Of a stretch of 48,491 nucleotides of DNA, positions 8,012 through 43,868 are shown piece by piece. The stretch is from Desulfococcaceae bacterium. Its GTDB lineage: Bacteria; Desulfobacterota; Desulfobacteria; Desulfobacterales; Desulfosalsimonadaceae. The DNA is taken from the NCBI GenBank assembly GCA_030145385.1, contig JAQYVU010000027.1, forward strand, positions 1 through 48,491. The letters run 5' to 3'. Each line of letters starts with the position of its first letter. The stretch's first letter is position 1. The notes under the pieces are model-generated. The model searched no databases, was not told where the DNA came from, and was given only the letters and a program-made list of their open reading frames with translations. A program made the translations under genes and the position numbers.

Positions 8012-8785
8012 CTATGTATTGATAATTTCAATGGCAGAACGTTTTATCCATCCCAATTTGCCGTTTGAAAAATAGATTTTTACATAGTTATTTTTTTCTG
8101 ATTGTATTTTAACTTTCGATCCGGCATGCAGAGTAAATAGTTCTGTGGAATCATCTGACAGGCCGGATCGTATGGAAATTTTTTCAGGAAGAATTACTGC
8201 CTGCTTTACATGTATGAAATCATAATAATTATAAAATCCGGTTAATATCAGAACAGCGCTGATATTCAATAACGAGTAATATATAATATTGAGAAAAAAT
8301 GACTTTAATTTTTTGGAATAAATACATCGGAAAAATGTCATCAGCCAGAAGCTAATGGAAAAACCGATGCTCAGCAGGATAATTTCAGAAAAAGACAAAA
8401 TATAATTCCAGAAAAATAAGGATTTAATAAGAGGCGATGTTTTTTCTTCAACCTGATCTTTTACCAGACCTCGCGCATATTCCAAATTAAATCTCAGGTC
8501 CGGATCCCTTGGCATTAGGCGATGCGCCCGTTCATACCATAAAACAGCCCGGCCAAGATTTTCCTGTTTTAAATATGCATTTCCCAGATTATAAAACAGT
8601 TTGCCGTTGTTAATTCCGCTTTGGACATTTTTTGTAAATTGGGAAACCGCCTCATCATAATTTCCTTCCTGATAGGCTTTAATCCCGTTCATATAGCTCA
8701 TTGTCTCGGAAGCATACAAAATATTAAATAAAATAAGGATGCCGATAATGCAGCAGACGGTTGCTTTGATGGCTTTTATTTGCAT
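8012..8785 (-). CDS. batE: BatE-like TPR and SH3 protein
   Basis: 257 residues. An N-terminal hydrophobic segment (about 7-27) is a signal or anchor. TPR repeats follow (about 30-105, with GKLFYNLGNAYLKQENLGRAVLWYERA), then two transmembrane helices (about 120-185) and a bacterial SH3-like domain at the C-terminus ending in NGKLGWIKRSAIEII. This TPR-TM-TM-SH3 layout is that of BatE of the Bacteroides aerotolerance operon. It overlaps batD by 10 bases, which indicates translational coupling. It is the last gene of the moxR-bat operon and probably a membrane adaptor between the VWA proteins and the cell wall. The exact role is not established. Confidence 0.8.
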   Translation of the reverse strand: MQIKAIKATVCCIIGILILFNILYASETMSYMNGIKAYQEGNYDEAVSQFTKNVQSGINNGKLFYNLGNAYLKQENLGRAVLWYERAHRLMPRDPDLRFNLEYARGLVKDQVEEKTSPLIKSLFFWNYILSFSEIILLSIGFSISFWLMTFFRCIYSKKLKSFFLNIIYYSLLNISAVLILTGFYNYYDFIHVKQAVILPEKISIRSGLSDDSTELFTLHAGSKVKIQSEKNNYVKIYFSNGKLGWIKRSAIEIINT

Positions 8786-10542: not shown

Positions 10543-10566
10543 TTTTATTTAATTTCCACTAATGAG

Positions 10567-12447
10567 CTACCAGTCCTTATCAATTGATTTATCCATGTAT
10601 CTTGGAACCAGTGCCGCGCCGGGGCGGTCTTCAAGACGATCAAGGGCACGATCACCCGCCTGTCTCTCCTCTGAAGAAGGTGATGTCGGCATTTGTTCAG
10701 TCGAAGAATCTGCTGTCGGTGGTTTCGAGCTTTCTTCTGCGCCCCTATTCTCCTGATTCTGCTGACTATCATTCATGGAATCGCCGTATTGAGTGTTCTT
10801 ATTTGAATCTGATGAATCCGGCTCAGAGGCTTTTGAGTCACTATTATCCGATTTATCCGATTCAGAACGATCCTGCCGTTTATTGTTTTCATCCGGTTTG
10901 TTCTGTTTATCTTTTGAATCGTCAGCAATATCTCCGGACCGGTTTTTTGATTCGCCTTCATCCGTATCATCTTTTTTGTCTTGTGGCTTGTTGTTTTCAG
11001 ATGACTGCTGTTCCTGCTTCTGTTTTTCAAGCATTTTTCTGGCAAGTTTTAAATTGGCTGCAGCCTTCTGATCTTCCGGATTCATTTTAAGATATTTTTC
11101 ATAAGATTCAATCGCCGGTTCAAATTGTTGAAGTCGGAATTCTGTATTGCCTTTATTATAATATGATTTTTGTTTTAATTCATTGTTATCGCTGATTGTT
11201 CCTTTATCAAAATGATTCAGCGCTGATTGATAGTCGCATGATTTATAATAGGCAGTTCCTATATTGAAATTAATCATATCATCATCCGGGGATAGAAGCT
11301 GACCGTCAATAAACGATTTTAATGCTGCGGCATAATCCTTATTGTCATACGCACTGATTCCTTTATCAATGAGGTCATGTGCGTCATCGGCATAAGCATC
11401 ATTTGTAAATCCGCCAAGGCTGAGTGTGAAAACACACATCAGTATTGGAATGATTTTATTTTTTTTCACAGATGAAAGGATCATTTCAATCATTAAAAAA
11501 AGCAGCGCAATACCTAAAAACCACTGATAACGGTCTTCCCATATTTTTTTACGACCGGAAGAGATTGTCGCAGATTCCATATTACCACGAATTTTATTTG
11601 AATAAATGTTCTCAAGATCCATATCTCCGGCAACGGATTTAACATAAATCCCGCCGGTCAATGAGGATATTTCTTTGAGTGTACCATCATCAAGTTTTGT
11701 CAAAACAATATTGCCCGAATTATCTTTTGAAAATCCGCCTTCTTTTTTTAAAACAGGAACGCCTTCTTTTCCGCCGATACCGATACAGAAAATTTTGATT
11801 CCCTGATCTCCGGCTGCTTTAGCTGATTTAATCGGATCATCAGCAGTACTTTCCCCATCCGTGATCAGGATAATTGCTTTGTCTGAATTGCTGTCCGGAT
11901 CAAAGCCTGAAATGCCGGCAGCAATTGCTTGTGAAAGATTTGTTCCCCCGACCGGCATGAAATCAGGCGTCAGGGAATCTAAGAATAAATAAAACGTTTC
12001 ATAATCATGGGTCAACGGGCACTGAAGAAATGCCGTTCCTGAAAAAGCGACCAACCCCACCCTGTCGCCTTTTAGCATATTCAATAAATCGATAATTTCG
12101 TACTTGGCCCTTTCCAGTCGACTCGGCCTGACATCTTCGGCAAGCATACTCCGTGAACAGTCCAGTGCAATAAATATATCAATCCCCTTTTTTTCTACGT
12201 CAATCCATTTATACCCATATCTTGGACCGGTCAAAGAAATAATAAAAAACAAAATTCCAAAAATCATCAGCAGCGCCTTGAACCATCGTTTTTGAACAGA
12301 AGCGTCCGGTATGATGATTTCAATGGATTTTTTAGAAGAAAAGGATGAAATAATTTTTCGCCGTTTTCTCATCCCCAGGTAATAAACCAGAAATAAAACC
12401 GGTACTGCCCAGATCAAAAAAAGAATTTCAGGATTTGTAAAGCTCAT
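10567..12447 (-). CDS. batB: BatB/BatC fusion: VWA domain plus TPR repeats
   Basis: 626 residues. Membrane helices near 7-25 and 58-78 precede a VWA domain with an intact MIDAS (DCSRS, residues about 94-98, and ITDGES). Another membrane helix lies near 305-325, and a second hydrophobic signal-like stretch near 333-353 (ending NDAYA). Three or so TPR units follow (about 357-465), then a low-complexity tail of about 110 residues rich in S, D, K, N, E and Q. In Bacteroides the VWA (BatB) and TPR (BatC) parts are separate genes; here they are one frame. It overlaps batA by 4 bases (ATGA). Mg2+-dependent partner binding is the likely role. Confidence 0.87.
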   Translation of the reverse strand: MSFTNPEILFLIWAVPVLFLVYYLGMRKRRKIISSFSSKKSIEIIIPDASVQKRWFKALLMIFGILFFIISLTGPRYGYKWIDVEKKGIDIFIALDCSRSMLAEDVRPSRLERAKYEIIDLLNMLKGDRVGLVAFSGTAFLQCPLTHDYETFYLFLDSLTPDFMPVGGTNLSQAIAAGISGFDPDSNSDKAIILITDGESTADDPIKSAKAAGDQGIKIFCIGIGGKEGVPVLKKEGGFSKDNSGNIVLTKLDDGTLKEISSLTGGIYVKSVAGDMDLENIYSNKIRGNMESATISSGRKKIWEDRYQWFLGIALLFLMIEMILSSVKKNKIIPILMCVFTLSLGGFTNDAYADDAHDLIDKGISAYDNKDYAAALKSFIDGQLLSPDDDMINFNIGTAYYKSCDYQSALNHFDKGTISDNNELKQKSYYNKGNTEFRLQQFEPAIESYEKYLKMNPEDQKAAANLKLARKMLEKQKQEQQSSENNKPQDKKDDTDEGESKNRSGDIADDSKDKQNKPDENNKRQDRSESDKSDNSDSKASEPDSSDSNKNTQYGDSMNDSQQNQENRGAEESSKPPTADSSTEQMPTSPSSEERQAGDRALDRLEDRPGAALVPRYMDKSIDKDW

Positions 12448-13442
12448 GGGATCCTTAAAAATCGAGTATTAGTTAAAACAATCAGCACTACCAGTATCAA
12501 AAAAGCCGGCCACAGCAGATAACGGTAAAATTCATCATATTCAGCAAAGGTTTTGATCCGGGTTTCTGTCTTTTCAAGTTTATCTATTTGATCGTATACC
12601 TGCTCCAACTGCGTTAAATCTTCTGCCTTAAAATATCTTCCCTGAGTTTCACTGGCAATGGCTTTGAGAGAATTCTCGTCCATATCAACCTGCTGATAAA
12701 CATATTGTTCCCCTAAAAACGGATGTTTGATTAGAAAAGGCGCTTTTCCTTTACTTCCCACACCAATCGTATATATTTTAACGCCTCTTGCAGATGCGAT
12801 ACGGCTTGACTCTTCTGGTGTTAATTCACCGCTGTTGCTTCTTCCGTCCGTTAACAGAATAATGATATTCGATTTACTGTCAATGTCCTGCAGCCGTTTT
12901 AATGAAATGCCGATTGCATCACCGATTGCCGTGCTCTTGCCGGCGGCTCCGATTTCGATCTTTTCCAGTATCGTCATGATTGTCTGGTAATCTCTGGTCA
13001 GGGGAATCTGTGTATATGCATGGCTCCCGAATACAACCAGCCCGATTCTGTCCCCATCCCTTTTTGATATAAAATCAGCGACAACTCCTTTTACAGCCTT
13101 TAAACGGTTGACGATTTGTCCCTCTTGCTTAAAATCTAAGGCCGCCATGCTTTCTGAAATATCAACAGCCAGTATGATATTAATACCTTCAGATTGAACC
13201 GTTACACGATGGGTTCCCCATTGAGGCCTTGCCATGGCGATAATCATCAAACAGAATGCGAAATACTTTAAAACAGGCAGCAGCCATTGTGCCTTTAATA
13301 CCAGTGACGGCTTAATTTGATCGATCTTATGTGTGCCGGATATATATATGGATGGATAATTATTTTTTCGTTTTCGCAAAAATAATACAATCGGAACCCA
13401 GGCAAGCAGCAGCAGAAATATAGGGGATGCAAAACGAAACAT
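12444..13442 (-). CDS. batA: BatA-like membrane VWA protein
   Basis: 332 residues. Transmembrane helices sit at about 5-22, 57-75 and 305-325. The VWA domain between them has an intact MIDAS: DISES (about 94-98), a T in the QIPLTRDY loop, and LTDGRSNSG. This topology places the VWA domain on one face of the membrane next to BatB/C, in line with a heteromeric VWA complex driven or remodelled by the MoxR ATPase. It lies 26 bases after the DUF4381-like gene, and its stop overlaps the start of batB/C, so coupling is likely. Confidence 0.9.
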   Translation of the reverse strand: MFRFASPIFLLLLAWVPIVLFLRKRKNNYPSIYISGTHKIDQIKPSLVLKAQWLLPVLKYFAFCLMIIAMARPQWGTHRVTVQSEGINIILAVDISESMAALDFKQEGQIVNRLKAVKGVVADFISKRDGDRIGLVVFGSHAYTQIPLTRDYQTIMTILEKIEIGAAGKSTAIGDAIGISLKRLQDIDSKSNIIILLTDGRSNSGELTPEESSRIASARGVKIYTIGVGSKGKAPFLIKHPFLGEQYVYQQVDMDENSLKAIASETQGRYFKAEDLTQLEQVYDQIDKLEKTETRIKTFAEYDEFYRYLLWPAFLILVVLIVLTNTRFLRIP

Positions 13443-13468
13443 AAAATATATCCGGTAAACAATTATTT

Positions 13469-14137
13469 TTAAGTTATTTCAGGCTTAAGTTTTTCTTTTG
13501 CCGGGGTTGTCGTGTTAACAAAGCGGAAAGCCAGCTGCAGATCATTTGCAGCGTTATCCCTTCCCGTTGTCATTTTGGCAAACTTTATTTCATCACTGAT
13601 TTTAAGAAAATTTTTTATATCACGCTTTAATTCTTCGTTTAAATCAATCTTTGAAATCATTGGTAAAATTTCTTCAAGTGTCATCTCAACGGCATTGATA
13701 TCAAATCGACCCTGTATGTATTGCCTTAAAATCAAAGAAAGTTTAAAATAGAATTTTTGGGAAAAAAAGTCCGTGTATCTGGAAAGATTGTGCAGCGCAT
13801 TTAATGCTTTTTCTTCAGGCGAAATATATATCACCTCATTTATTTTATGTGACTTTTTGCGGCGCTTATAAAGATAAATTAATATGGCCGCAATTGCTAT
13901 GATGCAAAAGGCAGCAGCCGTTATAATCAGAATAAAGGATAAATTATCTGCCGCAATTTGCTCGGGCGGTAAAATATCATAAATTTCCGAGATGTCTTCT
14001 GCTTGTGCCTGAGAGGCTGCAGGTAGTGGTGGATTTTGGATCTGACTGTCACCTATGTCCGGCTGCTGAGTAAACCCAAGCGCGCACAAACCAATATTTA
14101 CGAGGCAGATAATCAATAGCGTTTGATAGAATTTCAT
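13469..14137 (-). CDS. DUF4381-like membrane protein of the bat operon
   Basis: 222 residues. A signal-like segment (about 5-22) is followed by a short periplasmic Pro/Gln-rich stretch, then a transmembrane helix (about 67-90, FILIITAAAFCIIAIAAIL) with a basic YKRRKK stop-transfer, and a cytoplasmic helical domain of about 120 residues. Proteins of this shape between DUF58 and BatA are usually classed as DUF4381 or similar. Function is unknown; position suggests a membrane subunit that docks DUF58 or MoxR to the VWA pair. Its start overlaps the stop of the DUF58 gene by one base. Confidence 0.7.
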   Translation of the reverse strand: MKFYQTLLIICLVNIGLCALGFTQQPDIGDSQIQNPPLPAASQAQAEDISEIYDILPPEQIAADNLSFILIITAAAFCIIAIAAILIYLYKRRKKSHKINEVIYISPEEKALNALHNLSRYTDFFSQKFYFKLSLILRQYIQGRFDINAVEMTLEEILPMISKIDLNEELKRDIKNFLKISDEIKFAKMTTGRDNAANDLQLAFRFVNTTTPAKEKLKPEIT

Positions 14138-15015
14138 CAGTGGATCCGTTTTTCCCGTAAATGAAAATATCGGATCAATGCATCTGTTACAGAATCAGCT
14201 GTACTGATTTGAATGGTGTCAATTCCAGATGTCTTTAGACTTTCTATGCTGCTGAAGTATTCTTTGCGTTTTATCTGACTAAAAAAATTTCTGTTCGATT
14301 TATTGGCCGCATCGAGTTGAAAACGATTTCCTGTTTCCAGATCCTCGACAGTAACGATTCCGTAATTCGGTAAATTAAAATCTCCCGGATCAGATAAAAT
14401 AACCCCGATAAATTCATGTTTTTTTGCACTGATTTTAAGGAGGTGCTGATAATGTTGCGCCAGAAAATCGGAAATAATAAACGAGGTGGTGTGCTTACGG
14501 CAAACCTGGCTTAAATATCTGATGGCGCATTGAAGGTCCGTTTTTTTGTTTTGCGGTCTAAAAGTATATATTTCTTTTATCACACGCCAGATATGAGAAT
14601 TCCCTTTTTGGGGCGGAATAAATTTTTCCACCTGGTCGGTAAAAAATATAGCGCCGACTTTATCATTATTGCGGATGGCATTAAATGACAGAATCGCAGA
14701 AACTTCTGCAGCAATGTCCTTTTTGGTATTTTCAGTAGTTCCGAAATTTGCTGATGCGCTCATGTCAATAAGCAGCATCACAACCATTTCACGTTCTTCT
14801 CTGTAAAGCTTTATAAAGGGGCGGCCCACTCTGGCTGAAACCTTCCAGTCAATGCTTTTAACGTCATCTCCCGGCGAGTATTCCCGCACTTCTTCGAATT
14901 CAATGCCGGAACCTCGGAAAACGGATCGATACTGACCGGCCATCATACTGTTAACCGTTCGGCCGCTTTTGATATGCAGCTTTCGAATTTTTTTTATTAT
15001 TTCAATCGGTATCAT
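14137..15015 (-). CDS. DUF58 family protein (MoxR-associated)
   Basis: 292 residues, soluble. The hallmark DUF58 block is present: VREYSPGDDVKSIDWKVSAR with FIKLYREEREMVVMLLIDMSAS at about residues 42-90. The DMSAS motif places it in the VWA-like group with a partial MIDAS. DUF58 proteins almost always accompany MoxR ATPases and are thought to be substrates or adaptors. It starts 4 bases after the moxR stop and is clearly part of the same transcript. Confidence 0.9.
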   Translation of the reverse strand: MIPIEIIKKIRKLHIKSGRTVNSMMAGQYRSVFRGSGIEFEEVREYSPGDDVKSIDWKVSARVGRPFIKLYREEREMVVMLLIDMSASANFGTTENTKKDIAAEVSAILSFNAIRNNDKVGAIFFTDQVEKFIPPQKGNSHIWRVIKEIYTFRPQNKKTDLQCAIRYLSQVCRKHTTSFIISDFLAQHYQHLLKISAKKHEFIGVILSDPGDFNLPNYGIVTVEDLETGNRFQLDAANKSNRNFFSQIKRKEYFSSIESLKTSGIDTIQISTADSVTDALIRYFHLREKRIH

Positions 15016-15019
15016 TTTA

Positions 15020-16003
15020 TTACGGGACTTCTATTGATTCCAGCATCTGCAAAATGATATCATCTGTTGAAATATCTTCAGCTTCTGCTTCATAGGAAAG
15101 AATGATTCTGTGCCTGAGAACTGATGGTGCTACCATTTTTATGTCCTGGGGCGTCACATAACCACGGCCATTTAAAAAAGCATATGCACGGGCAATAATA
15201 CTAAGAAAGATGGTAGCTCTCGGAGATGCACCAAATTGAATATATTGTTCTAAGTCTAATCCATATTCTGCGGGTTTTCTGGTGGCAAAAATAAGATCAA
15301 CGATATAATCCTTTAGCTTTTCATCCATGTAGATTTCGTATTTGATAAAATCAGAAATGTCATGCAGTTGATCCGGGGTGATGATGTTGTTAATCTCAGG
15401 CAGATTTTCAAACCCCACACGTTTCATTATTTCCTTTTCTTCGCTTTTGTTCGGGTAATCAAGAACTAGTTTGAGAATAAATCGATCGATTTGGGCTTCC
15501 GGCAGCGGATAGGTCCCTTCCTGTTCAATCGGGTTCTGGGTAGCCATGACTAAAAACGGATCGTCTAGTTTAAAAGTTGTTTTGCCGATGGTCACCTGTT
15601 TTTCCTGCATGGCTTCAAGCAGTGCGGACTGAACTTTAGACGGTGCCCGGTTGATTTCATCGGCCAGAATAATATTATTGAAGATCGGACCTTTGCGAAT
15701 GGTAAAATCGCCGGTTTTCGGGCGATACACTTCAGTGCCGATCAGATCGGCCGGCAGCAGGTCCGGCGTAAACTGGATTCTTTTGAAATCCACCTGGATG
15801 GTTGCAGCCAGGGCATTAATAGCACTTGTTTTGGCAAGTCCCGGAACACCTTCGATTAAAATATGCCCTTTGGTAAAAAGCCCCATTAACATGCCATTGA
15901 CTAAATCATGCTGACCGACAAGGACTTTACCCAGTTCTTCCTTAATTTTATGAACAATCAGACTCTTTTCTTCAACAAGGGTTTTTAATTTTTCCATATC
16001 CAT
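15020..16003 (-). CDS. moxR: MoxR family AAA+ ATPase
   Basis: 327 residues. Walker A is GVPGLAKT (52-59), Walker B is ILADEINRAPSKVQSALLEA, and sensor 1 lies in ATQNPIEQEGTYPLPEAQ, followed by DRF; all are typical of the MoxR subgroup. The C-terminal lid domain is complete (GASPRATIFL). MoxR proteins are chaperone-like ATPases that mature or activate VWA-containing partners. It is the first gene of the seven-gene operon. An in-frame ATG two codons in is an alternative start; the ribosome site is weak for both. Confidence 0.93.
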   Translation of the reverse strand: MDMEKLKTLVEEKSLIVHKIKEELGKVLVGQHDLVNGMLMGLFTKGHILIEGVPGLAKTSAINALAATIQVDFKRIQFTPDLLPADLIGTEVYRPKTGDFTIRKGPIFNNIILADEINRAPSKVQSALLEAMQEKQVTIGKTTFKLDDPFLVMATQNPIEQEGTYPLPEAQIDRFILKLVLDYPNKSEEKEIMKRVGFENLPEINNIITPDQLHDISDFIKYEIYMDEKLKDYIVDLIFATRKPAEYGLDLEQYIQFGASPRATIFLSIIARAYAFLNGRGYVTPQDIKMVAPSVLRHRIILSYEAEAEDISTDDIILQMLESIEVP

Positions 16004-21662: not shown

Positions 21663-24341
21663 TTATTTTCCGGACAATTCATTTTTAATTGCCAGTCCAA
21701 GTTCTTCAATCGTATATGGTTTTTTTAAAAATTGACCGGCGCCTAAATTCTGGACGGCTGTTACATCATTATTTATTGAAAAGCCGCTGGCAATAATGGC
21801 TTTCTGGCCTGGAAAATATTTTAGTATCTGTTTATATGTTTCAAGGCCATTCATTCCAGTGGGCATTATCATATCAAGCAGTATTAAATCAAATGAGTTT
21901 TTCTGTATTTGTTCAATTGCAGCCTGGCCGCTTTGAACCTCGGCGGTTTTATAGCCTAAGGCTTTTAACATTTCACAGGCAATATCTCTTTGGTTTTTTT
22001 CATCATCAACAACAAGAATATCTTCGCTGTTTCCTAAGTATTCATCAATAGATATTTTTTTTACTCGTTCCTTGATGCTCTCCCGGGTAATAGGGAAGTA
22101 CATGTCAAACCGGGTCCCCGCCTGATTGCTTGTCACAACGACATAACCGTTATGATCCTGAACCGTATTCCAGACAACCGTTAATCCTAATCCCGTCCCG
22201 CTTCTGCCCATCACTTTTTTCGTATAAAACGGTTCGAATATACGATCAATTTCTTCTTTTGAAATACCGCTACCGGTATCCGAAATTGATAACACCGCGT
22301 ATTCACCGATCTGCACGTCATTATAAGCTTTTAAGGGGCGATCGATATATCTGTTCGCTGTTGAAATTTCGATGTTGCCGTTTGTCTCAATTGCTTCTGA
22401 AGCATTTGTCACAAGATTCATAATACTTTTTCGAACATGCAATCGGGAAGCATCAATATTGAACAAATCAGGTTTAAGATCGGTTTTGAGTTGAATATTC
22501 GTTTCCAGCAATTTTAGCTTATAAAATTCAGGAGAAATTAAATATTCTTTAACAATGCTGTTTAAGCTGAGCACCTCTTTGTTACTTGCAATGCCTCTTG
22601 AAATCGTTGTCAGATCGTTTACGACTGCTGCTGCTCTTTCACCTGATTCCTGTATAACCTTCAGAGCTTTGCGCGTCTTTGCATCCAGTCCTTCTTTCAT
22701 GAGCAATAATTCGGGATAACTGACAATTCCGGAAAGGATATTGTTCAAGTCATGCGCCACACCACCGGCAAGAAGCCCCAATGCTTCCATTTTTTTAGAT
22801 CTTGCCAGTTTTTCCCTTAATGTCTGTGTTTCAGCTTCAGCAGCTTTCCTGTCCGAAACATCCCGAATAACCGAGACAAAAACATTTTTCCCGTAATAAA
22901 TCATTTCCTTAGTCTGAATAATTAATGGAAAGGGTGCGCCGTCATATCTTAATCCCATAATTTCAAGAAAAGTCGTCTGTCTTAAAATTATTTCAGGTTC
23001 AAACATTTCTCTGAATTCAGGTGAAATGGTATTAATAAATGCCATCTTTCCAATAACTTTTTTACGGTTATATCCGAACATTTTTAAAAATTGATTATTG
23101 ACCTGAAGAATAATGCCGTTGTCATGGATAACGATTGCTTCCAAGGCAACTTCCGATAATTGGCGGAAGCGGTCTTCGCTTTCACGCAAAGCCCGGATGG
23201 ATTTTTTTAAATCCGTCACATCCCTGAAATTCATTACCGAGCCAAAATTTTTTCTGCTGTATATTAAGGGGCAGTAAACCCTTTCAAAAACCCTGCCGTC
23301 ATTCAGGTAAAGTTCTTCAAATAATTCTTTGCCGTTTTCAAAAAATTTTGAATGAAAAGTTTCCGGATTTTTTAATTGACCAAGCATAAACTTAGTCAAT
23401 TCCAAATCTTTATCTTTAAACTTAAACTCTTCAGGCATCTTCCACATTTGGTAAAAACGGTCATTCGCATTGATAATGTGGCCATTGTTATCCGTAACCA
23501 AAATCCCGTCTGACGAAGCTTCAAAGGTAGCCCTTAACTGCGCTTCACTATTACGTATGGCTGATTCCACTTTTTTTCGTGCATTAACTTCAAAGCCCAA
23601 CTGGCGGTTGATATCCGCAAAGGAATCTTCACGACGCCTTATCTGGTCTGCCATAAATCTAAAATCTAAAATGATGGATTGAAACTCAATATGTTTAAAT
23701 TTTTGAAACTCATATCCGTAATTCCCGCGAGATATCTGGTTCATACCCTGAATAAGAGAGTGAAGGGGTTTTTTTACCAATAAACGAATTAATACAGCGG
23801 TTAAAATTACTAAAGACAGAATAATCAATAACAGGATAAGAATATTAGATACCAAAAGTTGCCGAAGGTTTTCCTGGTAGTAGCGACGCGTAAGACCAAG
23901 TTTGACATTTCCGATATTCCTTCCGTTATGACGAATTTCAAAATCTCTGAAAATTAAATCCGGATCATTGGATTTTGATTTACTAAAAACATTTTTGTCA
24001 TAGGGAATACGGTTTGAATCGTAAAATTTTTCACTGACCTGAATTATATCCACCAGTTCATTGTTGAAATACGATTCTGCAATTTTCGCTGAAATTTTTC
24101 GATCCAAAGTCCAAATTGGCAACTCAAGACTTTCAATTAAATAAGACTGGTATTCGTCAGCAAGCTGTTCAAGCCTTTTTTCTTCAACATGCGAGGTATA
24201 CAAATAATTAGACCAGATAGCGATCATCGAAACTGTGACAACGATCAAAACTAGACTTAACGTTAAATCTTTTGTTATCGTTCGTCTTTTATTTGTGTTT
24301 TGTCGTTTTAAGATTGGTTGAACAGTTTTATTCGCCGGCAT
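21663..24341 (-). CDS. Hybrid sensor histidine kinase with two PAS domains and receiver
   Basis: 892 residues. A transmembrane helix (about 28-50), a periplasmic sensor region (about 51-155) and a second helix (about 160-187) lead into a HAMP-like linker. Two PAS domains follow (about 265-380 and 390-500), with a PAC-like segment. The HisKA box is GGVAHDLNN with His530; the ATPase has NLVTNASEA, GSGISKEEIDRIF and GTGLGL. A C-terminal receiver has Asp823 as the phosphoacceptor (LLDMIMP) and Lys in FLKKPYT. All catalytic residues are intact. No separate response regulator is adjacent. It is upstream of the TPR-GTPase cluster on the same strand, with a 139-base gap, so a link to that module is possible. 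Confidence 0.92.
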   Translation of the reverse strand: MPANKTVQPILKRQNTNKRRTITKDLTLSLVLIVVTVSMIAIWSNYLYTSHVEEKRLEQLADEYQSYLIESLELPIWTLDRKISAKIAESYFNNELVDIIQVSEKFYDSNRIPYDKNVFSKSKSNDPDLIFRDFEIRHNGRNIGNVKLGLTRRYYQENLRQLLVSNILILLLIILSLVILTAVLIRLLVKKPLHSLIQGMNQISRGNYGYEFQKFKHIEFQSIILDFRFMADQIRRREDSFADINRQLGFEVNARKKVESAIRNSEAQLRATFEASSDGILVTDNNGHIINANDRFYQMWKMPEEFKFKDKDLELTKFMLGQLKNPETFHSKFFENGKELFEELYLNDGRVFERVYCPLIYSRKNFGSVMNFRDVTDLKKSIRALRESEDRFRQLSEVALEAIVIHDNGIILQVNNQFLKMFGYNRKKVIGKMAFINTISPEFREMFEPEIILRQTTFLEIMGLRYDGAPFPLIIQTKEMIYYGKNVFVSVIRDVSDRKAAEAETQTLREKLARSKKMEALGLLAGGVAHDLNNILSGIVSYPELLLMKEGLDAKTRKALKVIQESGERAAAVVNDLTTISRGIASNKEVLSLNSIVKEYLISPEFYKLKLLETNIQLKTDLKPDLFNIDASRLHVRKSIMNLVTNASEAIETNGNIEISTANRYIDRPLKAYNDVQIGEYAVLSISDTGSGISKEEIDRIFEPFYTKKVMGRSGTGLGLTVVWNTVQDHNGYVVVTSNQAGTRFDMYFPITRESIKERVKKISIDEYLGNSEDILVVDDEKNQRDIACEMLKALGYKTAEVQSGQAAIEQIQKNSFDLILLDMIMPTGMNGLETYKQILKYFPGQKAIIASGFSINNDVTAVQNLGAGQFLKKPYTIEELGLAIKNELSGK

Positions 24342-36212: not shown

Positions 36213-38318
36213 ATGGAAAAATTATTCAATCCGGAATCCATTGTCATATTAGGGTTATCAAAAAAATCATCAAACGTACCGCGCATCATATTGGAGAATC
36301 TTATACGCTGGGGGTTTATGGGAAGAATTTTCGGCGTCAACCCCACTTCACCGGACATCCATGTTGACGGTGTACGAATGTATCAAAAAATTGAAGACTT
36401 GCCTATTGTACCGGATCTTTGCGTTTCTTTGATACCGGCAAAATTCATTCCGGATGCCGTCGAATCCTGTGGGAAGTTCGGTATTCACTGGATGGCCATA
36501 CCTTCCGGCGGATTCAATGAAACCGGCGAAGAAGGGAAAAAACTGGCAGATCTGACCATGGGCAATGCCAAAAAATACGGAGTCCGGTTTGTAGGCCCTA
36601 ACGGGTTAACAGTTGCCAATACATCCAATGGTCTGTGTCTTCCGTTTGTCCCGCTTTACAAACCTTTAAAAGGCGGATTTTCGATTATCACGCAGAGCGG
36701 CGGGCTTGGACTGATGCTCTGGAATTTGATGAATAACGGGAATGTCGGACTGGCCAAGTTTGCAAGTATCGGCAATAAACTGGATTTAACTGAAATTGAT
36801 TTTCTGGAATATTTTGGTGCGGACCCGGAAACGAATGTCATCGGCGTGTATCTTGAAAGTATTACAAATGGAAAAAAATTCATTGAAATTGCCTCTAAAA
36901 TCAATAAACCGATCATTGTTCTTAAGGCGAATACAACATCAGCCGGCAACATGGCTGCCATGAGCCATACCGCTTCGATTAGCAATAACGACGATATTAT
37001 TGATTCAGCGTTTGAACGATCCGGGATTATACGTATTTCAAGCTTTTCCGATTTTATCTCCATGGCCAAGGCGTTCAAACTTCCGCCCATGAACGGCAAC
37101 CGGATCATGGTCATGAGTCCGGCAGGGGGCTTTTCTGTTATCCTGGCCGATCTTTGCGAAAAAGCCGGTTTTGAATTTGCTGATCCCGGTGAATCGTTTT
37201 ACAAAGAGCTTGAAAAATATTCCAATGCCGGGGTGATTAATTTTTCAAATCCGCTGGATATGGGTGATATTTATGATCCTGAAATGTATGCCCAGGTTTT
37301 CTTTTCCGTTCTGCATAATGAGTATGTTGACGGTGCAATCTACCTTACGCAATGGCCTACCATGCCCCGGGGCGAAGATGTATTTACCAAAATGTTCAAT
37401 ACGGATCTTTCAAAAGATGCCATTGGTGCGTTGCATTCATCCGGAAAACCCATGGGTGTCTGCCTTTATGGATCTGCCGGCACCATGATGAAAATCAAAC
37501 AAAATATTGCCTTCCCGCTTTTTGACAGTCCGGAAGAAATCGTCAATTCATTGAAAGCTCAGAAAAACTATTATAAAAGGCGCTTGCAAAATGCGTTTGT
37601 ATCCAATCGTCCTGCCGAATACGACCAATTACAAGCAACCCAATGGATAACCAGTCATAATGATGACATCGGTGAAGAGTCGTTGGCGTTGATTGAAAAG
37701 GCCGGTGTCAAAACCGCAAAATCAATCGTTGCCCAAACCCTTCAGGATGCCATTAAATCGGCCAACCAGATAAGTTATCCGGTTGTTATGAAAGTCGTTT
37801 CACCGGATGCATTGCATAAATCCGAAGCCGGGGGCGTAATTGTCGGCATAGAAAACGATCAGGAAGCGGAAAAAGCATTTCACCAAATTAAAAACAATCT
37901 TATCTCTTTCAAGCCGGATGCTGTTTTCAAGGGCGTGCGTGTAATGGAAATGGCTGCCGAAGGCCATGATATGTTTATCGGCGGAAAAGTCGATAAATCT
38001 TTCGGCCCGGTGGTTTATTTTGGATATGGCGGAATTTACATTGAAGTTTTTAAGGATATCCGCAATGTCCTTTGCCCTTCAAATACTGAAGAAATTACCG
38101 AAAAACTGAAACGTTTAAAATGCTTTTCGATTTTAAAAGGAACCCGGGGAAAAGCTGCCGGTGATATGGATGCGTACGTCCATGCCATTGAATGCGTTTC
38201 TCATTTATTATCGGATAATAAAGAAATCAAGGAACTGGATATCAATCCCATTCGCATTCTTGCCAAAGGCTCAGGCGTCATGGCTTTGGACGCACGAATG
38301 AAAATCAACCGAACTTAA
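36213..38318 (+). CDS. NDP-forming acyl-CoA synthetase (acetate-CoA ligase family)
   Basis: 701 residues. The order is CoA-binding domain (about 1-130), two ligase-CoA subdomains (about 145-450) and a C-terminal ATP-grasp domain (about 485-700). The phosphohistidine candidate is in AAMSHTASISNND; the CoA-ligase motif is ITQSGGLGLMLWN. ATP-grasp features are YPVVMKVVSPDALHKSEAGGV and FGYGGIYIEVFKD. This fused alpha-beta form converts acyl-CoA, phosphate and ADP to the acid, CoA and ATP. In anaerobes it conserves energy from acyl-CoA, or activates acids in reverse. The acyl chain cannot be told. GAGG precedes the ATG. It ends 2 bases from the convergent Hsp70 stop. Confidence 0.9.
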   Translation: MEKLFNPESIVILGLSKKSSNVPRIILENLIRWGFMGRIFGVNPTSPDIHVDGVRMYQKIEDLPIVPDLCVSLIPAKFIPDAVESCGKFGIHWMAIPSGGFNETGEEGKKLADLTMGNAKKYGVRFVGPNGLTVANTSNGLCLPFVPLYKPLKGGFSIITQSGGLGLMLWNLMNNGNVGLAKFASIGNKLDLTEIDFLEYFGADPETNVIGVYLESITNGKKFIEIASKINKPIIVLKANTTSAGNMAAMSHTASISNNDDIIDSAFERSGIIRISSFSDFISMAKAFKLPPMNGNRIMVMSPAGGFSVILADLCEKAGFEFADPGESFYKELEKYSNAGVINFSNPLDMGDIYDPEMYAQVFFSVLHNEYVDGAIYLTQWPTMPRGEDVFTKMFNTDLSKDAIGALHSSGKPMGVCLYGSAGTMMKIKQNIAFPLFDSPEEIVNSLKAQKNYYKRRLQNAFVSNRPAEYDQLQATQWITSHNDDIGEESLALIEKAGVKTAKSIVAQTLQDAIKSANQISYPVVMKVVSPDALHKSEAGGVIVGIENDQEAEKAFHQIKNNLISFKPDAVFKGVRVMEMAAEGHDMFIGGKVDKSFGPVVYFGYGGIYIEVFKDIRNVLCPSNTEEITEKLKRLKCFSILKGTRGKAAGDMDAYVHAIECVSHLLSDNKEIKELDINPIRILAKGSGVMALDARMKINRT

Positions 38319-38320
38319 TA

Positions 38321-41113
38321 TCAGGCTTCATGCAAGACAAGTCCGGAAGGCAGCGATTCGCCAAAGATAGTGCTTTCTTCCATGGTTGCCATGGGTTTTA
38401 CGGAAGTTAAAAATTCCGTTTCCGCTTTTAAATCCATTTTAATCAGCCAGTGGATCACCTGATCCATTACAATCGGATCAAGATCACGCATGCGGTCGCC
38501 GGTTTTTCTTGCCATCTGGGCAAGTGCTGCGCCGACAGGCTTGGGGTTTGACCACTCTTTTTTCAGTATTTGTGAAATCCATGCCTCAACTTCTTTTGGC
38601 GGAACAACACGATCAACGGGACCGTACAGCAATTCCCGCGCACCAATTCTGGATAATGCCCATAAAAGCGGCGGACGGCTCTTTTTGGGGTGCAGTTCGG
38701 AAAGAAGACGTCTGCCGTATTCGATTTTATCTTTGACCGTCAGTCTTTCCATGTTGGCAACCGCCATCCAGATTTCAATCCGCTCCTGATTGGAAATTCT
38801 GACTTTGGTTCCTTTTTTCGGCATTAACAGCGTCCGCAGATCCTGAATAAATTGACGCTGTTTCCCGGATATCAGTCCGGCGGCAACCCGACGCCACAGG
38901 ATCCACCACTCATTATTGACCTGCGCATTTTTTTTATAGCAAATCCCCTGCTTATAAATTTTCCATAATGCTTGAATCCGCTGTTCATCCATTCCGTCAC
39001 CAAACCCCGGGCGCAGGCAATAACCGGCTAAATTCAGCCATCTGATTTCATGTTCGGTTGAAAATTTCCTGGTATCAATGACGTTAAGAAGTTCATCCCC
39101 CAATCTTCTAATCAGCGCAAGAGGCCATTTTTCTTTCGACCGGCCGACACTCCTGGAAATTGTTTTCATTAATTGAATCAATGCCGCCGGATCGACATTG
39201 GGTGAAAATGATGATTGGATATCAGAAACCGCAGAATCGATGATTGCGGAATCAAAAACTTCATAATCCAGAACTTCAGGTTTTCCGGCAGTATCTCTTA
39301 GCTGAAACTGCAGTCTCCAGCGGTGGGAAGTGGAAAGAGAGCGGCACCATAAAAACAGAACCCCCATCTCGCTGAACTCAGCTTCGACCTGTATGGGAAT
39401 TTCCTTTTTTGACCCTTTCTGGCCGAACTGGATGACCGTCTGAAGCGGCGGCAAGGGGGTTAACGTATCATCTATTGGAATCAGATCACCGCTCCGGTCG
39501 CCGGAACGATAAGTGGAACTGTATAGATCAAAACTCACCGGCTGATTGGCCAGCACCTGGAATTTTTTATCCGGCAAGCTGATCTGAGACCCTTCATCAA
39601 GACCTCTTTCAACCAGACATACAGCTGATTTTTCGGCTTTCGCATCACCATTTTTTCTTTCAAAACCCAGATAATACGAACGGGCACTGCCGCTGCCTAC
39701 CCGGACACCTTTACCGATTTTAACGAGCCCGTAATAGGCGGCCCCAAGCGCGACCGCAAGATCCGGGGCAGAATTTTCAAGAACAGACGGCTGGCGGGAA
39801 CCGGCTTCGCCGAACCAGTGCCGCACGGAATCGGAAATTCTGTTTTGAATCAAAGAAGACTTTAACGATCCGCCGTTAAACAGAATGAAATCCGGAAACG
39901 GTTTTTTATCCAGAATTTTTTTTACATCATCCTTGTGCTTTTCTAAAAACAAACCAATATGACGCGTAATGGCCGGCTCGGTTTCATAGGGGAGTCCGAA
40001 CTCGGAAATTCCTTTTCGAATTTTTTTCGCCGCCGGATTATGGTTTTCGATCACCGGGAAAAAACCATCCATTAGAATCTCTTCTAATTTTGATCGTTGC
40101 AGCCGTGCGGTAAGCGTTCCGCCGATCAGACTGCTTCCTTCACCTATCATGGTGATGGTTTCAGAATCAACGCCGTCATTTAATATACTTTCCTTGGCCT
40201 GACGGCAAAGATGACAAAGGGTTTTCCAGCGATCGGAACTCAAATGACTGGATTGCTTAAATTGTTTTTCAACAAATCTTGCCAGGGCAAGATCAATATT
40301 ATCGCCGCCCAGTATTAAATGATCTCCAACGGCAATCCTTTCGAATCTTGGCGTTCCCTGGGTCTCACGCAGCGTAATCAATGTAAAATCACTGGTACCG
40401 CCGCCAACATCACAAACCAGAACCAGTTGTCCGGGTTTGATAAAATCCTGCCAGTTAAGTTCGTGCTTGATTAACCAGCTGTAAAATGCAGCCAGCGGCT
40501 CTTCCAGCAAGGTAACATTTCTCAAACCGGCGAGTTTAGATGCTTCGATGGTCAGGTCCCGGGCCACTTCGTCGAAGGATGCGGGAACGGTGATGATAAT
40601 CATCTGATTTTCAAGATAAAGTTCATCCTCATCACCCTTTGTGCTGTTCCACGACAAACGGATATGTTTCAGATAGGAAGCAGTTGCCTGTACCGGTGAT
40701 ATCTTATAAACATCATCACCGGAGCCCCAGGGCAGAATTTTTGCTCTTCTGTCTGCGTTCGAGTGACACAGCCAGCTCTTGGCTGATGACACGAGGCGGG
40801 ACGGAACCTTGCCCCCATGGTCCCTGGCAAATTTCCCGACAAAGTTCATCTCATCAGTGACCCAGGGAAGCCGGATCGAATCCTCGGCAATATCATATTT
40901 TCCGGGTATGTAACAAAAAGACGGAAGTACCGGCAATGGCGACAGTTCACCGGCACCGGTCAGCTGGGGGACTTTAAAGAGTTTAATCCCTCTGTTTTTT
41001 GCTGTATCTTCCGCAAGATCAACATAGGATACAGCAGAGTTGGTTGTACCAAGGTCAATGCCAATAATATATTTTTTGTTTTCAAAATCCAAGCTAATCC
41101 TGCTCCCGTACAT
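38321..41113 (-). CDS. Large Hsp70-family protein with helical C-terminus (DUF3731-like)
   Basis: 930 residues. An actin-like ATPase domain (about 1-480) has IIGIDLGTTNSAVSY, VCDVGGGTSDFTL and LFNGGSLKSSL. A reduced beta domain (about 490-640) replaces the usual peptide-binding domain. The last 290 residues are helical and resemble DUF3731, which accompanies such Hsp70s. Its start overlaps the upstream Hsp70 stop by 20 bases; a TTG at 41092, just after that stop with AGGA upstream, is an equally likely start. It shares the insertion S-S-A-K-S-W-L-C with its partner, so the two are paralogues. Substrate is unknown. Confidence 0.9.
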   Translation of the reverse strand: MYGSRISLDFENKKYIIGIDLGTTNSAVSYVDLAEDTAKNRGIKLFKVPQLTGAGELSPLPVLPSFCYIPGKYDIAEDSIRLPWVTDEMNFVGKFARDHGGKVPSRLVSSAKSWLCHSNADRRAKILPWGSGDDVYKISPVQATASYLKHIRLSWNSTKGDEDELYLENQMIIITVPASFDEVARDLTIEASKLAGLRNVTLLEEPLAAFYSWLIKHELNWQDFIKPGQLVLVCDVGGGTSDFTLITLRETQGTPRFERIAVGDHLILGGDNIDLALARFVEKQFKQSSHLSSDRWKTLCHLCRQAKESILNDGVDSETITMIGEGSSLIGGTLTARLQRSKLEEILMDGFFPVIENHNPAAKKIRKGISEFGLPYETEPAITRHIGLFLEKHKDDVKKILDKKPFPDFILFNGGSLKSSLIQNRISDSVRHWFGEAGSRQPSVLENSAPDLAVALGAAYYGLVKIGKGVRVGSGSARSYYLGFERKNGDAKAEKSAVCLVERGLDEGSQISLPDKKFQVLANQPVSFDLYSSTYRSGDRSGDLIPIDDTLTPLPPLQTVIQFGQKGSKKEIPIQVEAEFSEMGVLFLWCRSLSTSHRWRLQFQLRDTAGKPEVLDYEVFDSAIIDSAVSDIQSSFSPNVDPAALIQLMKTISRSVGRSKEKWPLALIRRLGDELLNVIDTRKFSTEHEIRWLNLAGYCLRPGFGDGMDEQRIQALWKIYKQGICYKKNAQVNNEWWILWRRVAAGLISGKQRQFIQDLRTLLMPKKGTKVRISNQERIEIWMAVANMERLTVKDKIEYGRRLLSELHPKKSRPPLLWALSRIGARELLYGPVDRVVPPKEVEAWISQILKKEWSNPKPVGAALAQMARKTGDRMRDLDPIVMDQVIHWLIKMDLKAETEFLTSVKPMATMEESTIFGESLPSGLVLHEA

Positions 41114-42947
41114 TAAATTCTAGTTTCCACTTTTGTTCAGCTTTGAAAGATTCTTCATCTTCGTCAGGCTGTTCGTGGACAGCCACACACCATAACTCCA
41201 GCGTTCCGATTTCCGTTACTTTAATTTCGAGTGAGACTCGCACAAACTGACCGTATTCCCCGTCAAGGGTTGTCTCAATAGAAGTAATTTCTTCGATTTC
41301 ATCCTGCCAGTCTTCAACAATTTCACCGGCAATATCCTTTTTACGGGTTGAAGAACCGAAAAAGTCAAACCGAACCGGTTCGCCGACAGCCAGGACAAAC
41401 TCCTGGTTTTTAAGGTTTATATCCGTGCCTTCTTCCATACCGAAAGACGCAACGCACAGTGCTTTTACCGGAACCGGCATACCCGGAACGGCCGGCATGG
41501 AAGCGGCAATACCGATATAATACGACCTTCCCAAGCCGCCGCGAATCCGAACGCCTCTGCCCCGACGGGCCAGGCCATAATACGCGGCGCCACGAGCAAC
41601 TGCAAGATCCAGGTCTTCTGAATTTATTTCCCGGATAGAATTTGATTCATCATTGGCGCCCCAGGAATCAAGAATGCCGGTGATATGTTTGCGGACTTTA
41701 TCGGACTTCATCACACCGCCATTAAACAAAACAGCGGTGGGCAATGCCATTGAATCATCAGTGTCGTTCTTCTGATGATTCAGGAAATTCGCAAGATGAC
41801 GTGAAACAGCCGGGTCGGATTCGTAAGACAAACCGGCCTCTGCAAGACCGATTTTCTGTGTTTTCATCGGTACTGACGAGATTTCACAGGCCGGGAAAAA
41901 TCCATTAATAATTGAATTTTCAATTTCTTTTTTGGATATGGATGATTTTATGGTGCCGCCGATCAGGCTGGACCCTCTTCCTAAAATGGTTACCGGATGT
42001 TCCTCTGTTTCCGGATCCGACAGAACTTTTTCTTTGGCCTTACGGCAGCTGTGGACCAGTCCGCGCATTTGCCAGGAATCCAGGCGAGTACCGGAATCCG
42101 CCATTTTTTTTGCAATCGAATATGCCAGTGCCAAATCCATGTTATCTCCGCCGACCAGCAAATGGTCACCGACTGCCACTCTTTCCAGTACTAAGTCACC
42201 GTTATCTTCATTAACATGAATCAGGCTAAAGTCACTGGTTCCGCCGCCCACATCACAAATAAGAATCCGGTCCCCTTTTTTTACTTTTTTTCTCCATTGA
42301 TCATTTGATGCTTCAATCCATGAATAAAAGGCCGCCTGGGGTTCTTCAAGCAGTGTGACATTGGAAAGTCCCGCCTGACGGGCTGCCTTAAGCGTCAGTT
42401 CACGTGCGACGGCATCAAAAGAGGCCGGAACCGTTAAAAAAATTTCCTGATTTTCAATTTTTAGCCTGTCATCGTCTGAAGCCATGAGATGATTCCACAC
42501 ATCACGAATGTGCTGAAGTATCAGCGAAGACGATTCAACCGGTGACATTTTGGATATGTCATCCGGACTGTCCCACGGCAAAACCGATTTATTCCTGTCG
42601 ATCATAACATTACAGAGCCAGGATTTACTCGACGAGATAAGACGCTGGGGAACTTCTGCCCCTCTATCCCGAGCAAATTCACCGACTATTTTTTTATTTT
42701 CACGATTCCACGGCAGCGACATGCCGCTGTCTGAAATTTCATGATTTGCCGGCAAATAGATAAACGACGGTAAAATATTTCGATTCTCTACCACCCCGTC
42801 ACTGATAACTTGCGGTATATCAAGAACCCTGATTTCAGGTTTCCGGTCGTCATGTTGCGGGTCTTCCGATATTGACGCTTCAGTATATGCAACAATACTG
42901 TTTGTGGTTCCCAAATCAATACCGATAATAAACTCTGGATTCAGCAC
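41094..42947 (-). CDS. Hsp70-family protein, partner of the larger paralogue
   Basis: 617 residues, close to DnaK in length but divergent. ATPase motifs are FIIGIDLGTTNSIVAY, LICDVGGGTSDFSL, LLEEPQAAFYSW and LFNGGVMKSDK. An insertion containing SSSKSWLC (about 109-116) is also in the neighbour and absent from DnaK. The C-terminal beta domain is short and lacks a DnaK-type helical lid. No DnaJ or GrpE gene is adjacent. It overlaps the larger Hsp70 and lies 117 bases after the DUF2760 gene on the same strand, indicating one operon. Confidence 0.92.
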   Translation of the reverse strand: MLNPEFIIGIDLGTTNSIVAYTEASISEDPQHDDRKPEIRVLDIPQVISDGVVENRNILPSFIYLPANHEISDSGMSLPWNRENKKIVGEFARDRGAEVPQRLISSSKSWLCNVMIDRNKSVLPWDSPDDISKMSPVESSSLILQHIRDVWNHLMASDDDRLKIENQEIFLTVPASFDAVARELTLKAARQAGLSNVTLLEEPQAAFYSWIEASNDQWRKKVKKGDRILICDVGGGTSDFSLIHVNEDNGDLVLERVAVGDHLLVGGDNMDLALAYSIAKKMADSGTRLDSWQMRGLVHSCRKAKEKVLSDPETEEHPVTILGRGSSLIGGTIKSSISKKEIENSIINGFFPACEISSVPMKTQKIGLAEAGLSYESDPAVSRHLANFLNHQKNDTDDSMALPTAVLFNGGVMKSDKVRKHITGILDSWGANDESNSIREINSEDLDLAVARGAAYYGLARRGRGVRIRGGLGRSYYIGIAASMPAVPGMPVPVKALCVASFGMEEGTDINLKNQEFVLAVGEPVRFDFFGSSTRKKDIAGEIVEDWQDEIEEITSIETTLDGEYGQFVRVSLEIKVTEIGTLELWCVAVHEQPDEDEESFKAEQKWKLEFNVREQD

Positions 42948-43064
42948 CCTTATACTCCTGATTTTTTTTATTGAACAGTCCGATAGCAGGCTGCGCGGTT
43001 TTATTCAAAAGACACCTTCTTTTAACATTGACGCAGCGGAGAATTACACCTGAAAAGATTTAAA

Positions 43065-43868
43065 TCACATAATTTCAACTTCGGCAGGGGCAAGTATACC
43101 CGGATCTTTTACCGCAGCTAATGTCGGCAGCTCAAGACGTGACGCACGCCACCCTTTATGTCGCAGCGTTCCCTGAAACGGCGGCTCACCGGTCACGTTC
43201 CCCGTCAGCTTGATGGTATTCGGATCAAAGTCGGCAGGAACAGAGATGGGGTCTCCTTCGTTCTGATCAATAACCGCTTTGGGGTTTAAATATTTTTTTA
43301 ATGAGTTCTTGCAGTTGTCCTGAATACTTCGGACTGCGGCGCCGATCTGCGCGTCTTCATACAAGCTGAGATCTTCGGAAAAAAAATCGATTAAACGCCC
43401 TTCCCGTTGAAGAACGGAAAGCAAGTGCAGGTAAAACCGTTTGTTTGTTTCCGCTAATTCCTTTTTTGTGATCACAGGCTCTGCGTCGGGGTCAGCTGAT
43501 AATTTATCTTTTTTCCCTTTTTTCTTTGGAGCGGCAACACGTTGATCAACAAGTTCGGATTTTCGAAGCAGCCGGGCGATGGAGCCTCTTAAAAAAAGCC
43601 ATAATATTAAGGCAAATATCACAAAAACAGATGATACGACAGGAATGTAGAAATTTTGTAAAATATTGATGACAGGCAAAACTTTTTCCAGACCGATTCT
43701 TAATTGTTCAGAATGAATGGAAGCATCCTCCAAAACCTGAATCGGCAAAGCGTTAAACAACAACCGAGCCCCATAGTAACCTGCTGCAATAAATAATATG
43801 GCAAGCAACATCATGAATATAAAAGACCATAACAAAATACGGCGGGAAAAAGATTTTATGACATTCAT
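43065..43868 (-). CDS. DUF2760 membrane protein
   Basis: 267 residues from the ATG at 43868, chosen for AGGAG 8 bases upstream; a TTG six codons earlier is inferior. Two transmembrane helices (about 10-32 and 68-92) flank a short loop, followed by a basic linker (AAPKKKGKKDK) and a cytoplasmic domain. The domain contains FYLHLLSVLQREGRLIDFFSEDLSLYEDAQIGAAVR, the core of DUF2760. The C-terminus is GTLRHKGWRASRLELPTL. The function is unknown. It is the first gene of the Hsp70 operon and could tether the chaperones to the membrane. Confidence 0.88.
   Translation of the reverse strand: MNVIKSFSRRILLWSFIFMMLLAILFIAAGYYGARLLFNALPIQVLEDASIHSEQLRIGLEKVLPVINILQNFYIPVVSSVFVIFALILWLFLRGSIARLLRKSELVDQRVAAPKKKGKKDKLSADPDAEPVITKKELAETNKRFYLHLLSVLQREGRLIDFFSEDLSLYEDAQIGAAVRSIQDNCKNSLKKYLNPKAVIDQNEGDPISVPADFDPNTIKLTGNVTGEPPFQGTLRHKGWRASRLELPTLAAVKDPGILAPAEVEIM

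Follow-up and report, generated by a model that had tools for sequence, protein, structure and literature searches.

Three adjacent genes in a 48,491-nucleotide stretch of DNA from a Desulfococcaceae bacterium (assembly GCA_030145385.1, contig JAQYVU010000027.1; the whole stretch is called the window here) encode a DUF2760 protein, D, and two divergent Hsp70 proteins, A and B. We show that D, A and B are inherited as one unit and that A and B are paralogous and have both kept the Hsp70 ATPase residues. Together with a well-supported loss of J-type control from A and from B of the window type, these findings would fit one dedicated Hsp70-type machine that operates alongside DnaK and escapes the known mode of control by DnaJ and GrpE. 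This reading, drawn from sequence comparison and structural models, is held tentatively: we give it close to, and slightly less than, an even chance.

An earlier note on the window had described a DUF2760 gene and two Hsp70 genes on the same strand, with the Hsp70 genes overlapping. This description was borne out: D, A and B all lie on the minus strand between 38321 and 43868, PF10816 is matched by D and PF00012 by both A and B, and the A and B genes share 20 bp as called. The parts of the cassette are as follows (NBD, nucleotide-binding domain).

43065-43868, minus strand: D, DUF2760 protein of 267 amino acids from an ATG (PF10816, E 2.5e-49)
43590-43838, minus strand: D, two hydrophobic helices forming a predicted membrane hairpin, residues about 11-93 (Kyte-Doolittle 2.78 and 2.72; model helices at 3-40 and 54-103)
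43074-43433, minus strand: D, DUF2760 domain (profile scan)
43068-43085, minus strand: D, C-terminal AEVEIM (conserved-tail comparison)
41094-42947, minus strand: A, Hsp70 of 617 amino acids from a GTG, with NBD and beta domain and without a lid (PF00012, E 3.9e-18)
42612-42629, minus strand: A, SKSWLC, residues 107-112, K108 corresponding to DnaK K70 (alignment)
38321-41113, minus strand: B, Hsp70 with C-terminal DUF3731, 930 amino acids (PF00012, E 6.7e-20; PF12531, E 4.3e-87; model)
40766-40780, minus strand: B, KSWLC, residues 112-116, K112 corresponding to DnaK K70 (alignment)
38333-39061, minus strand: B, helical DUF3731, standing where Hsp70 has its lid, residues 685-927 (PF12531, model)

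The start codon of D was picked by comparison with a Desulfobacteraceae locus (L007) whose A is 89% identical to the window A; an upstream TTG would give a protein of 273 amino acids. In the window a 117-bp gap separates D from A.

Inheritance of D, A and B as one unit

Of 184 relatives found by the conservation scan, the 80 best were retained as named loci. D, A and B follow one another in this order on one strand in 66 of the 80, so that the gene-neighbourhood check proposed in the earlier note did find the same neighbours in other genomes. Eight of the 14 exceptions end at a contig edge where the missing gene would be expected (L010, L021, L022, L030, L038, L045, L061 and L080). Three others continue for 2.0-3.1 kb past A with no match to B (L019, L027 and L063), two have A with neither D nor B inside 10 kb (L026 and L048), and in L060 a second Hsp70 gene lies 3 kb past A and is broken by the contig end. 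The spacing is tight: across the named loci the median distance is -4 from D to A, with 35 of 73 loci at this very value, and 0 from A to B (n=62), which suggests translational coupling. The loci come from Desulfobacterota, Nitrospirota, Acidobacteriota, Proteobacteria and one member of the Gemmataceae, and plasmid records add Bradyrhizobium. The cluster had been assigned to deltaproteobacteria, without a function; it is indeed annotated without one, but the taxonomy was too narrow, given several phyla.

Linkage alone is insufficient to explain the co-inheritance: D, A and B are kept together even when they are scattered. Among 198 genomes of the window phylum, D occurs in 25 and B (scored by DUF3731) in 24, with both in 23. 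A, which was told apart from B by score and place, occurs in 22, always with D, and all three genes are present in 21. D and B without A were found in G134 and G155 (each 99% complete), D and A without B in G042 (67% complete), D alone in G078 (62% complete) and B alone in G041 (85% complete). D and B were present in the same 5 of 143 genomes of the class of a Noviherbaspirillum genome (G205, locus L042) and in the same 3 of 149 genomes of the phylum of a Solibacteraceae genome (G204, locus L040). When pooled, the 490 genomes divide into 31 with both, 2 with D only, 1 with B only and 456 with neither; a weak DUF2760 match in G472 fell below the cut-off and was excluded from the counts. Among 14 genomes reached through named loci, D was present in 14 and B in 13, the B miss being a 2.3-Mb assembly of unknown completeness (G202).

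Several genomes hold the genes apart. B lies 250 kb from D-A on the same contig in G161 and on a different contig from D-A in G029; D and B are on separate contigs in G198, where A has neither inside 10 kb; and in G199 the D and B domains are 2 kb apart and A is elsewhere. In G134, which has no A, B follows D directly. Since A is absent from two 99%-complete genomes that retain D and B, D and B look like the core, with A a dispensable member. The earlier note had proposed A and B as a pair. They do belong to one co-inherited unit, but an obligate pair is not the rule, as G134 and G155 lack A.

ATPase residues, architecture and J-contact residues of A and B

A and B are 40% identical to each other over 621 columns and 23-25% identical to the NBD of Escherichia coli DnaK. 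The alignments took in the window together with 54 of 78 full-length A, 54 of 63 full-length B and 52 of 73 D. The residues equivalent to K70, E171, D194, T199 and D201 of DnaK are invariant in 55/55 A and 55/55 B; with PF00012 above its cut-off and the catalytic and phosphate-binding residues in place, both proteins belong to the Hsp70 superfamily. All 28 sampled sequences have E or Q at the D326 place, which adjoins a large insertion and is uncertain. SKSWLC had been taken for an insertion shared by the two proteins. It is instead the Lys70 motif: its lysine aligned onto K70 of solved DnaK, also in two repeats with MAFFT, and KSWLC occupies the place of DnaK KRLIGR, with the next four DnaK residues missing. 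What A and B have in common is KSWLC and not the full SKSWLC, B having AKSWLC.

The sequence matches of A and B in the PDB are to DnaK, BiP and Hsp70. An AlphaFold2 model of B (mean predicted local distance difference test score, pLDDT, 80.7; predicted template modelling score, pTM, 0.68) comprises an NBD that ends near residue 465, a beta domain at about 479-601 and helices at 622-903. Its alignment with full Hsp70 structures extends to around residue 606 (6eof: Z 34.7, root-mean-square deviation 3.7, 465 residues). The helical tail described for the larger Hsp70 is thus present in the model, after the beta domain, and contains DUF3731, for which no PDB sequence match was found. A change at the place of the lid is not peculiar to B: A ends after the stretch aligned to B 1-607, with no lid-like extension.

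In a tree of 39 rows, with B cut to its first 640 residues, A and B fall on opposite sides of one branch (bootstrap 48; Shimodaira-Hasegawa-like approximate likelihood ratio test 99) and are grouped by phylum within each side. The DnaK stem is very long and gives no secure root. This pattern is as expected from one old duplication followed by joint inheritance, but the bootstrap of the split is weak. A 1515-residue open frame in G092 was considered as an A-B fusion and rejected, the surplus being an out-of-frame extension over A; other flagged long open reading frames (ORFs) overlap A likewise.

Two papers describe R167 and the interdomain linker of DnaK as mediating J-domain contacts and interdomain coupling (PMC8215388, PMC6843406). 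The N170 equivalent is E in 110/110 sequences (55 A and 55 B), and the R167 equivalent is T in 51/55 A and in the window B. A wide pattern that detects the linkers of E. coli DnaK, HscA and HscC found a linker-like string in 0/55 A and none in the window B; it was scored on 54 B, L015 being left unscored. Neither R at the R167 place nor a linker-like string is present in 36/55 B. On these comparisons, J-type control appears to have been lost in A and in window-type B, a conclusion that we regard as well supported.

The host genome encodes an ordinary DnaK on another contig. A Pfam scan of the window, covering 28 of its 38 ORFs of at least 120 amino acids, detected no DnaJ, GrpE or Hsp90 family, in agreement with the earlier note; one scanned ORF (21663-24341) carries a histidine-kinase HATPase_c domain. 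The proposal that the chaperones form a system separate from DnaK also held up, in that D, A and B are co-inherited even when scattered and that A and the window B are without the J-contact and linker features, including the R167 and N170 equivalents, which are retained by E. coli DnaK, HscA and HscC. A further Hsp70 of 562 amino acids, 40% identical to the NBD of E. coli DnaK, is encoded in the same genome (G000:C201:7201-8841; L002, L006).

Partner protein D and the competing readings

In the window D, a basic stretch comes after the two hydrophobic helices, and from its charge the DUF2760 domain should be on the cytoplasmic side. Among 73 D homologues, hydrophobic segments above the hydropathy threshold number two in 26, one in 20 (several borderline) and none in 27. 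The idea of D as a membrane tether therefore suits the window protein and is not general. Several other D have at their start a short amphipathic segment, with a hydrophobic moment of 0.64 in L042, that might touch the membrane. Residues 1-104 are poorly conserved (0.27), whereas conservation is high both in 146-242 (0.69) and in the last 25 residues (0.63). A tail of the form AE[VILM]E[ILVM] lies at the C-terminus, or at most 2 residues from it, in 72 of 73 loci; in the sole exception, L024, the alignment shows AEIEV followed by three further residues. By this comparison the membrane anchor of D is lineage-specific, and the constant parts are the soluble domain and the C-terminal AE[VIL]E tail. 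In the D model (mean pLDDT 82.3, pTM 0.44), residues 243-267 are without helix or strand, and a constant, unstructured tail of this kind would look like a docking motif. In eukaryotes, Hsp70 and Hsp90 carry an EEVD tail, which offers a parallel only.

The HPD motif of J-domains was found in 0/53 D, and DUF2760 was the sole Pfam match of the protein, with no J-domain profile among its matches. No fold match to D was found with Foldseek at E <=0.001, and no convincing sequence match in the PDB (best E 0.82). Nor did the Pfam and PDB searches match D to GrpE or another exchange factor, although D may have an unlisted fold of this kind.

One may ask how two Hsp70 proteins and D could work together. 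In the dedicated machine that we tentatively favour, D would replace a J-protein as the targeting or activating partner, and a hairpin-bearing D would hold the machine at the inner membrane, on its cytoplasmic side. This would be comparable with the role suggested, in a review, for the tail-anchored DjlB and DjlC, which are proposed to position HscC at the membrane (PMC8215388). B, with DUF3731 instead of a lid, would be the core ATPase together with D, and A would be a second, auxiliary Hsp70 that can be lost. The clients might perhaps be membrane or membrane-proximal proteins, the weakest step of the proposal. The HscC system is among the nearest in outline, as described in the same text: a divergent Hsp70 beside DnaK, a membrane-anchored partner and no GrpE (PMC8215388). 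It differs in that D has no HPD motif and in that HscC, unlike A and the window B, keeps R167, N170 and a hydrophobic linker; the identity of HscC to A and B is about 25-28% over part of the length. With DnaK-DnaJ-GrpE, A and B share the ATPase residues and the fold of NBD and beta domain (the fold from the B model), whereas the cluster has no J or GrpE gene and apparently no canonical lid, and the linker and the R167 and N170 positions are altered in A and the window B.

Some observations speak against such a machine. R at the R167 place is present in 17/55 B, from Burkholderiales and relatives; 13/54 B, all from Proteobacteria, have a hydrophobic string plus an aspartate near the linker; and 11 B, again all proteobacterial, combine the R with a linker-like string, so that proteobacterial B may still be under J-control. 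The string concerned, FLVLD, aligns where A has YYIGIE and where DnaK has its first beta strand, LSLGIE. Because of this match in position we read it as the first beta strand of B, though it may be a shifted linker. The anchors of D vary as described above, with 27/73 homologues lacking any strong hydrophobic segment. The host has four J-domain proteins above the cut-off on other contigs. By analogy with HscA and HscC, a fast-exchanging NBD may need no exchange factor. Finally, the co-occurrence of D and B gives a Fisher p of 1.5e-45 that is uncorrected for kinship, and the 31 genomes in which both occur include G000, G204 and G205, three that had served as search centres because they hold the cluster.

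A more specific, J-domain-free form of the machine can be imagined, in which the AE[VIL]E tail of D docks into DUF3731 of B (or into the beta groove) and gates the ATPase of B and A. The tail would then be an EEVD-like handle that arose separately in bacteria, and the membrane would be the site of action where D is anchored. We consider this form rather unlikely. If true, it would add a further prokaryotic Hsp70 kind to DnaK, HscA and HscC, and in several phyla.

Among the alternatives, about as probable as this specific form is that A and B are Hsp70-fold switches or scaffolds in signalling or envelope organisation and not chaperones of unfolded clients. The loss of the canonical linker, and apparently of a lid, would suit such a role, and both proteins have weak matches to MreB, as expected of any actin-fold ATPase. 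Signalling genes lie close to some clusters, and an HTH_25 gene stands upstream of D in three Nitrospirota loci (L032, L034 and L036; Pfam-checked in L036). Yet the beta domain is retained and in A is conserved like the NBD (0.668 vs 0.664), the adjoining signalling genes vary across phyla, and GroES-GroEL follows B on one Bradyrhizobium plasmid. More doubtful by a small step is an Hsp110-like pair, with B serving A as holdase and nucleotide-exchange factor and D being no more than an anchor. A similar arrangement is described for eukaryotic Hsp70 and Hsp110, where one paralogue is longer than the other and has a divergent linker and altered helices at its C-terminus (PMC6843406). Here the unequal paralogues share one operon, the cluster has no GrpE, and Foldseek matched B to Sse1 as well, though ranked under many Hsp70. 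However, the sequences are not close to Hsp110, there is the extra partner D, and B retains all ATPase residues. Loss of A from G134 and G155, which keep B and D, would leave an exchange factor without its client. In addition, according to the same source, Hsp110 linkers generally keep V386 and D393 (PMC6843406), which are missing in A and the window B.

We rate as marginally less probable again an ordinary accessory Hsp70 set that uses the host DnaJ and GrpE through unrecognised contacts, with D a client or an unrelated co-transcribed protein. The J-proteins of the host argue for it, as do the proteobacterial B just described: 17 of 55 have kept the arginine, and 11 of these also have a linker-like string. 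A and 36/55 B, which are without both features, and the E at N170 in every sequence argue against it, as does D, which co-occurs with B even when unlinked, unlike a chance neighbour. That the cluster is part of an anti-phage defence system is very improbable. D-A does occur amid annotated anti-phage genes on a Thiodictyon plasmid, and PADLOC gave a weak match to one candidate model, PDC-M61B (E 9.5e-7 for B, 2.2e-4 for A). The matched part is a stretch of the generic NBD only about 100 residues long, and D gave no match; the phylum scan found one match per positive genome; the tree rows are grouped by phylum; and the flanks in Desulfobacteraceae are ordinary chromosomal genes.

The trio is of interest for its presence in several phyla, where the Hsp70 motor is kept and the features through which J-proteins act are lost in A and many B, and for D, a near-constant small companion with no match to a known fold. 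If the dedicated machine proposed here is real, an Hsp70 can run on a partner other than a J-protein. Three proteins, a defined C-terminal motif and genomes that have naturally lost A make this a compact, testable system.

Literature and neighbouring genes

The D, A and B families are annotated in databases without a function and are undescribed in the literature searched. Pfam DUF2760 (PF10816) and DUF3731 (PF12531) are the families of D and of the B C-terminus, with no function attached, and the NCBI labels 'DUF2760 domain-containing protein' and 'Hsp70 family protein' stand side by side in public plasmid records. DUF2760, DUF3731 and PF12531 were unnamed in the literature searched, and the available parts of PMC11019930 and PMC4753570 do not name the families of D, A or B. 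The review cited above recognises three prokaryotic Hsp70 types, DnaK, HscA and HscC, each having J-proteins as partners (PMC8215388); E. coli also encodes the Hsp70-family protein YegD, unnamed in the text available.

One published protein may be of the A type. A study of a Burkholderia pseudomallei mutant lists an 'Hsp70 family protein' (65,225 Da, isoelectric point 5.7) as lowered (PMC7085900). The forward primer given there encodes GEHILL, and the A of B. multivorans reads GEHILLGGDNMD; the computed mass of the A of L046, 65,554, fits the published value. The computed isoelectric points of three A proteins are 5.1-5.2, and no placement of the reverse primer was found in the loci compared, so neither confirms the match. 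We treat this as a lead only, silent on function.

No fourth gene conserved across phyla was found among the neighbours of the named loci. In four Nitrospirota loci (L030, L032, L034 and L036; Pfam-checked in L030 and L036), B is followed, at a distance of 0-4 bp, by the start of a gene for an M48 membrane protease of the Ste24 type. On a conjugative plasmid of Bradyrhizobium sp. CB82 (L131), groES-groL lies about 1 kb after D-A-B. The protease and groES-groL hint at proteostasis, only locally. Plasmid pTs485 of Thiodictyon (L130) carries D-A without B, amid annotated anti-phage and TIR-domain genes.

A search for heat-shock promoters upstream of D gave a mean best sigma32-like score of 8.80 over 66 regions, against 8.17 for mononucleotide shuffles, with none reaching 12/14, and a CIRCE-like score of 9.70, against 10.17 for shuffles; the search has little power because the hosts' own dnaK, used as a control, also failed (scores 9 and 9).

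In the window, a gene for an ADP-forming acyl-CoA ligase (36213-38318, plus strand) adjoins B, as it does in L020 and L023 (Pfam-checked in the window and L023). The same kind of ligase gene lies between A and B in G001 (L116) and G077 (L115). Elsewhere in the window, an aerotolerance-type Bat operon (8012-16003, minus strand) encodes a MoxR AAA protein, a DUF58 protein, BatA/VWA, BatD and TPR proteins.

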